This document shows positions 1,364 to 30,120 of a DNA stretch of 33,429 nucleotides, one piece after another. The notes under the pieces are model-generated. The model saw only the letters and a program-made list of their open reading frames with translations, had not been told where the DNA came from and did not search any database. Origin of the DNA: Campylobacterales bacterium (GTDB taxonomy: Bacteria; Campylobacterota; Campylobacteria; Campylobacterales; Sulfurimonadaceae). Where the stretch lies: positions 1 through 33,429 of the forward strand of contig JAPLGP010000053.1 in assembly GCA_026390075.1 (NCBI GenBank), in the 5' to 3' direction. Each line of letters opens with the position of its first letter. Within the stretch, counting starts at the first letter, position 1. The translations under genes were made by a program, and so were the position numbers.

Positions 1364-2418
1364 TGGCAACGGTACTTTTATGTGATGATGAATTAATGAA
1401 TAGAAAAGTGGCATCTAAAATATTAATGAAAGAGGGTTTTAGTGTCATAGAAGCTCAAAATGGTAAAGAAGCGATAGAAATTTTAAACACTACCAAAATA
1501 GATTTGATTTTAATGGATTTGATGATGCCTGTTATGGATGGGTATGAAGCTACTAAAATTATAAAAGAAGATGATGAACTCTCCACTATTCCTCTTATAA
1601 TTATTTCCGCACTCTCAGATAAAGAGGCTATTACAAAGGGTTTAGAACTAGGTGCAGATGAGTATCTGACAAAACCTTTTGACATAACTGAGTTTAGACT
1701 TCGAGTAAAAAATGCAATAAAAATAGGTATTTATCAAAATATGCTTAAAGATCATAAAACACTTTTAGAATTTCAAGTGAAAGAGAAAACGAAAGAGTTA
1801 CAAAATGCACTTGATGAAGTTCAAAAAAGTGAAAAAGATATTATTTCTATCTTAAGTAAAACAGCTGAATATCGAGATAATGAAACATCGGTTCATACTC
1901 TGCGAGTTGGAGAAATGGCAGCTTTAATGGCTGAAAAGTTTGGTTGGAATGAAGAAGATATTGAGCTTATTCGTCTTGCTGCTCCCATGCACGATATTGG
2001 TAAAGTTGGTATAGAAGATAGAGTACTTTTAAAACCAGGAAAACTCGACGATGATGAGTTTACAATTATGAAAACTCACTCTGCCATAGGACATTCTATA
2101 CTTTCTCAAAAAGAGACACCACTTCTAAAATTAGCAGCAGAGATTGCACACTCTCACCATGAAAAATATAATGGTCAAGGGTATCCAAAAGGTCTAAGTG
2201 GAGATGGAATACCACTGAGTGGGGCGATAGTAGCTGTTGTGGATGTTTTTGATGCACTTTTGAGTGAGCGACCTTATAAAAAAGCTTTTACACTTGAAAA
2301 AGCACTTGAGATAATAAATAACGACTCTGGTACACATTTTCATCCTAAAGTGGTTTCCTTGTTTATGGATAACATAGATGAAGTTTTAGATATAAGAAAA
2401 AGATTAAACGATGTTTGA
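1363..2418 (+). CDS. Response regulator with HD-GYP cyclic-di-GMP phosphodiesterase domain
   Basis: The start at 1363 is preferred over the in-frame ATG at 1351 because GGAGAG lies about five bases upstream and the ATG overlaps the previous stop (TAATG), giving a 351-residue protein. Residues 1-118 form a receiver domain with acidic D8/D9, phospho-acceptor D52 in LMDLMMP and K104 in LTKPF. A helical linker (about 125-160) leads to an HD-GYP domain with H210-D211 in MHDIGK, a downstream HHE (265-267) and GYP at 273-275. All signature residues are present, so it should hydrolyse cyclic di-GMP when phosphorylated. It overlaps the histidine kinase gene by eight bases, which is the obvious partner. 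Family call is firm; the signal it answers is unknown. Confidence 0.93.
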   Translation: MATVLLCDDELMNRKVASKILMKEGFSVIEAQNGKEAIEILNTTKIDLILMDLMMPVMDGYEATKIIKEDDELSTIPLIIISALSDKEAITKGLELGADEYLTKPFDITEFRLRVKNAIKIGIYQNMLKDHKTLLEFQVKEKTKELQNALDEVQKSEKDIISILSKTAEYRDNETSVHTLRVGEMAALMAEKFGWNEEDIELIRLAAPMHDIGKVGIEDRVLLKPGKLDDDEFTIMKTHSAIGHSILSQKETPLLKLAAEIAHSHHEKYNGQGYPKGLSGDGIPLSGAIVAVVDVFDALLSERPYKKAFTLEKALEIINNDSGTHFHPKVVSLFMDNIDEVLDIRKRLNDV

Positions 2419-4447
2419 TTATTTTCAAAAATCTTTACGAAATAAGCTTCTTGTAACATTCATAGCAATTGGTTTTTTACCATTTCTTACACTTTTGATT
2501 TATACACTTTTTTTGAGTGAAACCAAAATTGTTAGCAAGATTGTCATTGAACAGTTTGATAGAACTCAGGCTGTAATGAAATTGCTCAATAACCATTTAG
2601 CTTCACTCACAAAAGAGGTAAATTTTTTAAGTTCACTTGATTTAATGGACGACTTTTTAGCAGAAGATATTGATAAAAGAATTTCGAGACTTTTAATACA
2701 AAAATCAAATGATTTTAACCTAAAAGTAACACTCATGGCCGTAAATATGGAAGCTAATATAATTGCTTCTTCAAGTATCAGTGCTACAGTAAATAAGTTT
2801 GATATAACAAAATTTACAAATACACAAGGAGAGTATATTGAGGGGAAAAAGTTATATATTTATTCGAGTGTATATGCCTCTTTTGATGAAAGTAAGAGAC
2901 TTGGCTTTTTAGTTTTAGAGTATGAATTAGATAATTTAGACATATATCTTACACATAAAGATAGTATGCATTCTTATATAATAAATTCAAAAAATAGCTT
3001 CACAATAGGTGAAAACTTACCTTTAAATCTTAATTTTTATCAAGATGAGAATAGTGTTATCAATGATGATCATGTTATTGTATATAAAAAGTTATCTTCA
3101 ATTATGAGTGATTGGTACATTGTTTATGCAGTGGATAAAAGTGTTGCATTGGCTTTTTTATATGATTTTATTCGTTTTATGCTCTATATATCTGTTGTTA
3201 TTTTTGTTCTCATTATATATGTTTCTTTTAAATATTCTAAGGGCATCGTCAAACCCATAGAAGAGCTAACAGCTATAACAAACGAGATAACAAGCACACA
3301 CAATTACTCTGTTGAGTTGCATGTGGATTCTAAAGATGAGATAGCAATACTTACGCACTCTTTTAATGAAATGCTTAAAACTACCTCTTTCGCCCTTGCA
3401 AAACTTGAGGAAGAAAATAAGTTGAGATTGAAAAGATTTATTCAACTCATTGAGGTTTTCAATACGATTATCCAAACAAAAAACGAAGATGAGTGTATGG
3501 ATGTCTCCATAGAGCAGATAAAAATACTTACGAATAAGAGTGATTTACAATTTAATAAAGAGAAGTCTTGGCATGTGCGAATGGAGTGTATTGACCTTTT
3601 CGTTAGTGATTTTGAAAAAAATGAAAAAGTTTACTTTGGCTCTATAGAATTAGGACTTGATAGTTTTGAGGATAAAAATGAAAAAGATTTTTATAACTCA
3701 ATTGCTTCGATGATTACTTTGCAACTTGATAGAATTAGACTTATCGAGCGAACAATGTCCGCTTCACACGCTAAGTCTGCATTTATATCCAATATGTCAC
3801 ATGAATTAAGAACACCATTAAACGCAATTATTGGTTTCACACAGTATATGATAGCCTATGAAGAGCTTAATGAAGACCAGCTAGATACTATGGGAAATAT
3901 AGAGTCATCAGCACACTATTTACTTGGTATGATAAATGAAATTTTAGATATTGCAAAAATTGAAGCTGGAAAAATGGAAGCACATATTGAAGATGTAAAT
4001 ATTTTAGAATTGGTTCAGAGTTCTCATTCTATGTTACAACCGTTGGCGAAAGATAAAAAGTTAGATTTTGATTTGATTATTGAAAACTTTGAAAATAAGT
4101 ATTATAAAACCGATCCTAAAATGTTCAAACAAATTGTTATAAATCTTCTTTCAAATGCTATTAAATTTACGCAAGAGGGGCATGTGGAATTGAAGCTGTA
4201 TAATAACGCTAACACGATTTTTGTGAGTGTAAAAGATAGCGGTATCGGTATTTCTAAAGAGGATATGAAGCAACTTTTTAATGACTTTACTCAGGTTGAA
4301 AATGTAATGCAAAAACAGCACAAAGGAACAGGATTGGGACTTTCATTGAGTAAAAAGATGGCGCATATTTTAGGTGGAGATGTTACACTCAGCAGTGAAG
4401 GTATTGGGCATGGAACAGCATCACTTTTTTCAATAAAAATAGTATAA
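2411..4447 (+). CDS. Membrane sensor histidine kinase (HAMP-HisKA-HATPase)
   Basis: The 678-residue protein has a transmembrane helix at about 12-32, a roughly 210-residue periplasmic sensor region of Cache-like length, and a second helix at about 248-270. A HAMP segment follows (VKPIEELTAITNEI to about 325), then a possible GAF-like region (about 335-440). The kinase core has the H box MSHELRTPLN with H464, N box INLLSNAIKFT, G1 DSGIGIS, F box LFNDFTQ and G2 GTGLGLS. There is no C-terminal receiver or HPt domain, so it is a classical kinase expected to phosphorylate D52 of the overlapping HD-GYP regulator. The porin-like and PstS-like genes upstream suggest the periplasmic domain may read a ligand delivered by them; that is inference. 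An exact GGCATGTGGAA motif lies in the catalytic-domain coding region at 4179. Confidence 0.93.
   Translation: MFDYFQKSLRNKLLVTFIAIGFLPFLTLLIYTLFLSETKIVSKIVIEQFDRTQAVMKLLNNHLASLTKEVNFLSSLDLMDDFLAEDIDKRISRLLIQKSNDFNLKVTLMAVNMEANIIASSSISATVNKFDITKFTNTQGEYIEGKKLYIYSSVYASFDESKRLGFLVLEYELDNLDIYLTHKDSMHSYIINSKNSFTIGENLPLNLNFYQDENSVINDDHVIVYKKLSSIMSDWYIVYAVDKSVALAFLYDFIRFMLYISVVIFVLIIYVSFKYSKGIVKPIEELTAITNEITSTHNYSVELHVDSKDEIAILTHSFNEMLKTTSFALAKLEEENKLRLKRFIQLIEVFNTIIQTKNEDECMDVSIEQIKILTNKSDLQFNKEKSWHVRMECIDLFVSDFEKNEKVYFGSIELGLDSFEDKNEKDFYNSIASMITLQLDRIRLIERTMSASHAKSAFISNMSHELRTPLNAIIGFTQYMIAYEELNEDQLDTMGNIESSAHYLLGMINEILDIAKIEAGKMEAHIEDVNILELVQSSHSMLQPLAKDKKLDFDLIIENFENKYYKTDPKMFKQIVINLLSNAIKFTQEGHVELKLYNNANTIFVSVKDSGIGISKEDMKQLFNDFTQVENVMQKQHKGTGLGLSLSKKMAHILGGDVTLSSEGIGHGTASLFSIKIV
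4179..4189 (+). repeat. GGCATGTGGAA dispersed motif, copy 1
   Basis: Exact 11-mer inside the histidine kinase gene, read in frame as G-H-V-E. It belongs to the family of 14 exact copies in this window. Confidence 0.85.
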
Positions 4448-4780: not shown

Positions 4781-4821
4781 CTCACTTGTGGCATGTGCTG
4801 TGAGCGAAAGCGAGGAAATAT

Positions 4822-4853
4822 TCTTGGCATGTGGGAACTTCCACATGCCAAGA
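4822..4853. terminator. Convergent hairpin built from an inverted pair of the dispersed motif
   Basis: A 13-bp stem (arms 4822-4834 and 4841-4853, loop GAACTT) lies between the 3' ends of ppnP (plus) and trxC (minus). The right arm holds an exact TTCCACATGCC (4839-4849); the left arm holds the same word with one changed base (4826-4836). Plus-strand sequence after it is T-rich (GTTACTTCTTTCTTTT). It can act as a terminator in both directions. Confidence 0.7.
4839..4849 (-). repeat. GGCATGTGGAA dispersed motif, copy 2
   Basis: Exact copy on the minus strand, forming one arm of the ppnP/trxC terminator hairpin. Confidence 0.85.
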
Positions 4854-4893
4854 GTTACTTCTTTCTTTTAGTAAAAGAGTATGTAAAAATGTT

Positions 4894-30062: not shown

Positions 30063-30084
30063 GATTTATTCCTTCGTTTCGCAT

Positions 30085-30095
30085 TTCCACATGCC
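30085..30095 (-). repeat. GGCATGTGGAA dispersed motif, copy 13
   Basis: Exact copy; left arm of the frr/pyrE hairpin. Confidence 0.85.
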
Positions 30096-30102
30096 AAAGC
30101 TT

Positions 30103-30113
30103 GGCATGTGGAA
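30103..30113 (+). repeat. GGCATGTGGAA dispersed motif, copy 14
   Basis: Exact copy; right arm of the frr/pyrE hairpin. Confidence 0.85.
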
Positions 30114-30120
30114 ATAAAAA

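Follow-up and report, generated by a model that had tools for sequence, protein, structure and literature searches.

An important question raised by this locus is whether an inverted repeat between two converging genes is a transcription terminator and nothing else, or whether its arms belong to a repeat with another primary role. In the window, i.e. the whole stretch of 33,429 nucleotides that was analysed, ppnP (pyrimidine/purine nucleoside phosphorylase, PF06865; 4469-4780, + strand) and a thioredoxin 2-like gene, trxC (PF00085 plus the Thioredoxin-2 zinc ribbon PF21352; 4894-5316, - strand), converge on a gap of 113 bp. The original prediction described a 13-bp stem in this gap, made of one exact and one singly changed copy of a motif, and its description was accurate: the arms at 4822-4834 (TCTTGGCATGTGG) and 4841-4853 (CCACATGCCAAGA) are perfect 13-bp reverse complements around the 6-nt loop GAACTT, the copy on the - strand being consensus (TTGGCATGTGGAA, i.e. 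TTGGCATGTGG-A-A; 4839-4851) and that on the + strand being one base off (TTGGCATGTGG-G-AA; 4824-4837). Including flanking and G-U pairs, the hairpin on the + strand spans 4820-4855 and folds as RNA with 16 pairs at -26.1 kcal/mol (z -6.8). Just upstream, a further partial copy, GGCATGTG at 4790, which lacks the GGA, lies as predicted within a CTCAC/GTGAG stem (4781-4804, + strand); this stem was not found in the ppnP-trxC gaps of the relatives that were read.

As expected of an intrinsic terminator, a stop codon is thus followed in this gap by a stable hairpin that contains G+C. A terminator scan matched both strands at the hairpin (two matches found against 0.7 expected), with the tails TACTTCTTTC 3' of it on the + strand and ATATTTCCTC on the - strand. 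The proposal of a convergent terminator nevertheless stands only in part. That an inverted pair forms a 3'-end hairpin is well supported, but the motif hairpins as a class come without a U-tract: two tests detected none after them, the mean over 41 downstream flanks being 3.0 T per 10 nt compared with a background of 3.5. Moreover, the terminator reading stops short, because the pair is apparently a single case of an uptake-sequence-like repeat for which terminators would be a secondary use.

The scale of this repeat becomes apparent in the source genome of the window (G000; 2,403,259 bp in 61 contigs, judged to be Sulfurimonas by its FliW relatives). The motif GGCATGTGGA, with a consensus of approximately yTTGGCATGTGGAAwT, occurs there 1,302 times, 663 copies on one strand and 639 on the other, and its reversed control 1+0 times; for TTGGCATGTG the counts are 344+319 and 1+1. 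In a 305-kb sample, 180 copies of GGCATGTGGA stand against 1.39 expected from an order-4 Markov model, under which the top 8- to 11-mers found de novo in the same sample are pieces of the motif. With such numbers, chance or compositional bias is refuted and retains a practically negligible probability. Aligned copies read approximately y-T-T-GGCATGTGG-A-A-w-T, with information beyond the core at positions -2, -1, +9, +10 and +12. The site is asymmetric, 10-12 bp in length, and GGCATGTGGA recurs about once per 1.8 kb; the window itself has 16 copies of GGCATGTGGA (eight per strand), 17 of GGCATGTGG and 21 of GGCATGTG. A copy number far above chance and a non-palindromic sequence on both strands are characteristic of uptake sequences of the DUS and USS types.

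We consider it probable that the two arms are copies of a DNA-uptake-sequence-like repeat of a Sulfurimonas clade, and that this pair of tags has been recruited as a 3'-end hairpin. In the mechanism that we propose, the type IV pilus/ComEC machinery of natural transformation would prefer double-stranded DNA bearing the motif; biased uptake together with homologous recombination would then cause the motif to accrue by point mutation on both strands, in genes as well as in gaps, by a molecular drive of the kind that has been modelled for Haemophilus. Where opposite copies happen to lie a few bases apart in 3' gaps, they could fold into hairpins at mRNA 3' ends, with the ppnP/trxC pair acting as a bidirectional terminator or a 3'-end stabiliser. 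Preferential uptake, a receptor and transcription termination are what we infer here from sequence.

The placement of the motif in the genome is that of uptake sequences of the DUS/USS type, which occur in genes and, more densely, in the DNA between them, and form inverted pairs at gene 3' ends. Among the 180 sampled copies of GGCATGTGGA, 129 lie wholly within called ORFs, which cover 93% of the sample, 45 are intergenic and six cross borders, corresponding to 0.45 per kb of coding and 2.05 per kb of non-coding sequence, a 4.5-fold higher density between genes. Copies inside ORFs run in either direction and are read in several frames, most often giving the peptides xACG, xPHA and xHVE, and most copies are unpaired, as exemplified by GGCATGTGGAA at 4179-4189 (+ strand) in a histidine-kinase-like ORF (2411-4447). 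In a larger sample of 620 kb, the 8-base core occurs 425 times, at 4.33 per kb in convergent, 2.33 per kb in tandem and 0.74 per kb in divergent gaps. Opposite cores within 30 bp of each other number 35, about eight times the roughly 4.4 expected by chance, and 31 of these 35 pairs are intergenic; a pair is present in 12 of the 49 convergent gaps, in 17 of the 180 tandem ones and in 2 of the 56 divergent ones (convergent versus divergent, p 0.003). Both pair orientations occur; the second inverted pair of the window, TTTCCACATGCCA...TGGCATGTGGAAA (30084-30114, + strand), has its arms inward and lies in the short spacer between two genes of like orientation. A separate REP-like family, GTCATTGCGAG / CTCGCAATGAC, which is distinct from the uptake-like motif, is represented by 35 copies in the 620 kb of G000 and was also seen in the G093 sample.

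Comparison with related genomes indicates how such sites change over time. G142, G148 and G143 form a clade with G000, in which G148 and G143 are sisters (25 genomes and three proteins, with patchy coverage); their nucleotide identities to G000 are 0.80-0.81, 0.81 and 0.79-0.80, respectively, and that of the more distant G083 is 0.73-0.74. Retention was counted only where the alignment covered every one of the 10 bases of a G000 site; of the 348 sites in the 620-kb sample, this left 25 sites for G142, 26 for G148, 33 for G143 and nine for G083. In each of the three closer relatives, about 2.5 intact 10-mers are expected after matching for codon position; intact are 21 of 25 in G142 (p 9e-18), none of 26 in G148 and one of 33 in G143, and in G083 seven of nine. 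Genome-wide counts of exact copies and of copies with precisely one mismatch are 1302/565 in G000, 1298/485 in G142 and 758/276 in G151, and 141/448 in G148 and 183/494 in G143, the reversed-pattern controls for these counts ranging from 12 to 59 across 12 genomes. In the G148 and G143 alignments, the motif is changed mostly by substitutions within alignable flanks and not by inserted blocks, and the highest-ranking de novo words in 463 kb of G148 continue to derive from the GGCATGTGGA motif, with no replacement motif among them. Orthologous sites are thus kept beyond neutral expectation and altered by point mutation, as in DUS/USS-type systems, and by these sequence comparisons the motif is maintained in some lineages, is decaying in one and is present as relics elsewhere (G093, G123, G192). 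Since G143 and G148 are sisters, their erosion may be a single phylogenetic event.

The ppnP/trxC gap itself separates the two functions that we propose for one and the same sequence. The original prediction had suggested following the arms across strains, and motif-pair hairpins indeed recur: G142 has a perfect pair with outward arms, TTTTGGCATGTGG-AAGTTT-CCACATGCCAAAA, G144 and G135 have a pair with inward arms, TTCCACATGCC-NN-GGCATGTGGAA, and in G169 the pair is inward and overlapping. In G148 and G143, the right arm CACATGCC is retained and the left arm is changed to GGTGTGTG, so that the tag is lost, but the two altered bases pair as U-G and G-U and the hairpin is kept, with folds of -17.7 and -18.1 kcal/mol; the identical two changes count as one event, because the genomes are sisters. 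A different hairpin, free of the motif, occupies the gap of G123. Loss of the arms with the gene layout unaffected, which had been named in advance as speaking against the prediction, was found in G047 and G001: ppnP and trxC converge there, nearly abutting, and the bases read between them contain no hairpin. The layout therefore does not depend on the hairpin. The gaps of G075, G019, G093 and G168 were not judged, as only a paralogue of trxC was recovered from these genomes, and G105, G151, G083, G192, G119, G069 and G139 were not counted, as a neighbouring ppnP was not found or was only a distant partial match. Taken together, these gaps support selection for a 3'-end hairpin wherever a gap exists, which would act separately from any selection on the tag.

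Only part of the genus carries the motif. In a family sample of 200 genomes, 107 of them of the same genus (G000 included), at least 300 copies of GGCATGTGGA are present in eight genus genomes (G000, G142, G083, G105, G144, G151, G135 and G169; 357 to 1,302 copies) and 36 to 183 copies in six more (G143, G148, G192, G093, G168 and G123), the remaining genus genomes having 0 to 13; near variants of GGCATGTGGA occur in G168 and G169. The count never exceeds 19 in the other genera of this sample, nor 11 outside the genus in a phylum sample of 397 genomes. Among public records, JAABQD010000001.1 (Sulfurimonas sp. S03.Bin072 MAG) carries the motif, and GGCATGTG is absent from the seven other loci that the FliW comparison named. 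Other members of the genus are rich in other motifs. TACATGTAGA reaches at least 100 copies in 12 of 135 genus genomes (117-515 each; G139, G141 and G152 among them), with balanced strands and, in the sample from G139, two different inverted pairs, and it has CATGT-n-GA in common with GGCATGTGGA, in register. TGCGTGAGG does so in seven of 135 (G001, G039, G031, G147, G166, G212 and G214; 169-327 copies); in the G001 sample it is found on both strands, with a mild lead bias (32 versus 20) and no inverted pairs. A Chi-like bias of TGCGTGAGG to the + strand in G001 was considered and rejected, as the loci examined carry it on both strands. Where counts were made, a genome with many copies of one of these motifs has the other two at background level. 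It is possible that TACATGTAGA and TGCGTGAGG are dialects, given their balanced strands and, for TACATGTAGA, the two inverted pairs; TGCGTGAGG could also be of the Chi type or have some other role. Independently of these motifs, a CTACAACCCCCTAAAGC-type repeat occurs in G143 at about 9-13 copies in 222 kb (L033, L051-L054, L179-L183) and is absent from the top lists of other genomes.

According to three papers, Neisseriaceae and Pasteurellaceae are the sole families from which uptake-type motifs have been described (PMC3630211, PMC7811141, PMC12616744). Our literature searches, with most subscription papers and all preprints outside their scope, revealed no uptake sequence from Campylobacterota. 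The Sulfurimonas motif resembles the DUS of Neisseriaceae in its non-palindromic core of 10-12 bp, its roughly thousand or more copies inside and between genes, its inverted pairs, which in DUS are associated with terminators, and possibly the division of related species into dialects (PMC3630211). It differs from DUS in that GGCATGTGGA is unrelated in sequence, that its host Sulfurimonas belongs to the phylum Campylobacterota, that a ComP-like receptor was not found here and that the pairs generally lack a U-tract. With the USS of Pasteurellaceae it shares a similar density and A/T-rich positions beside the core (here AAwT), but the USS core, AAGTGCGGT, is unrelated to GGCATGTGGA, and the phylum is again different. 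USS are reported to evolve by point mutation and molecular drive (PMC7811141), and their receptor, ComN, is only predicted (PMC12616744).

Closer relatives offer a different picture. Campylobacter and Helicobacter, which belong to the same phylum as Sulfurimonas, take up DNA in natural transformation by ComEC-based import. To our knowledge, self-recognition in these genera is either absent or based on DNA methylation, never on an enriched motif, and in contrast to Sulfurimonas, GGCATGTGGA is present outside this genus in at most 19 copies in the samples searched. It seems rather likely that Sulfurimonas has a third, independently evolved uptake-sequence system, which would be the first outside Neisseriaceae and Pasteurellaceae, with at least two exclusive dialects (GGCATGTGGA and TACATGTAGA) and possibly a third (TGCGTGAGG), and that some lineages have abandoned it, their tags now decaying and their hairpins being kept as 3'-end structures. 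Uptake biases, it has been suggested, might matter especially on mucosal surfaces (PMC7811141); if our reading is true, however, the hosts are free-living sulphur oxidisers and not mucosal bacteria. If free-living Campylobacterota have a system of this kind, it would test whether any sequence bias of an uptake machine leads to tags, and species with the motif, with another motif, with decaying relics or with none would form a graded set on which to examine the drive model.

The alternatives differ in how much of this pattern they accommodate. That the arms are only terminators, i.e. members of a lineage-specific family of hairpins (REP/BIME-like or standard terminators) that has spread between genes, would agree with pairs at eight times the chance level at 3' ends and with the terminator-like ppnP/trxC site. 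Yet this is disfavoured already by the 129 of 180 copies inside ORFs, most being unpaired. The lack of an aggregate U-tract also speaks against it, as does the way in which copies vary, namely by single-base changes within flanks that still align and not by the gain of whole blocks; we regard this explanation as very improbable. Chi-type motifs are abundant, short and non-palindromic. The motif shares these traits, but to read it as a strand-directed signal of the chromosome, whether Chi (recombination) or a polar sequence of the KOPS/FtsK type, seems highly improbable in view of the absence of leading-strand bias (88 versus 74 by GC skew, p 0.31; 663/639 by strand), the strong enrichment and pairing in intergenic 3' ends and the very narrow distribution within one clade.

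The main rival, which we regard as unlikely, is that the motif is bound by a cytoplasmic protein (nucleoid-associated, methyltransferase-linked or involved in segregation) and kept for a function of the chromosome. Maintenance of fixed sites and lineage-specific loss would follow from this as well, and any DNA-binding site that is under strong selection throughout a genome would generate part of the same pattern. What such a protein does not predict are pairing in 3' gaps, tolerance of several reading frames within genes, motifs that exclude each other by clade and long-term loss in G148 and G143; moreover, an asymmetric site of 10-12 bp at about one per 1.8 kb better fits uptake sequences. 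The reading of the arms as uptake sequences of the DUS/USS type is preferred here because several traits of such sequences come together: high copy number, asymmetry, occurrence in genes and gaps, 3'-end pairing, site maintenance, point-mutational decay and dialect-like exclusivity.

An uptake sequence presupposes competence machinery, and this is present in the genus, with ComEC in 11 of 12 genomes (in G000 at L103:5332-6594, PF03772), several secretion/pilus ATPases (T2SSE) in all 12 and pilins in each of the 10 genomes examined for them. In G148, comEC is interrupted by an insertion of about 8.1 kb (L158:7229-15347, contig C15), which contains a TnsA-like ORF (PF08722), a pilin-like ORF and radical SAM and UDG-family genes; GTCTC is found at both junctions, i.e. 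a 5-bp duplication, and the ends are suspected from the sequence to be Tn7-like, with no TnsB noticed among the ORFs of the insertion. The two halves of comEC, with dN 0.129/dS 0.979 and 0.211/1.947 (dN/dS about 0.11-0.13), have neither stops nor gaps, and since they were thus under purifying selection, the insertion must be recent and much younger than the erosion of the motif. Neither comEC nor dnaB was found in G143, so that the lack of comEC there may reflect a gap in the assembly. The notion that loss of comEC, split in G148 and absent in G143, provides natural knock-outs that caused the erosion was therefore rejected, the break in G148 being too recent and the absence in G143 perhaps a matter of assembly. 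In G093 and G123, motif counts are low and comEC is intact.

A receptor was sought among the pilins near comEC and priA. In the comEC region of G000 (L103), two pilins adjoin priA, and none of the pilins near comEC/priA tracks motif status, the priA pair being present in motif-rich and motif-poor genomes alike. One pilin beside priA (L103:13282-13695 and its relatives) has a conserved N-terminal half and a C-terminal half that is very variable across species, which makes it a candidate for a species-specific surface pilin. As a further observation on these genomes, the dnaB ORFs of G144, G135, G169 and G168 (L204-L207, L209-L212) are 826-834 aa long and encode the helicase in two pieces; these four split frames probably carry in-frame inteins, which are absent in most relatives.
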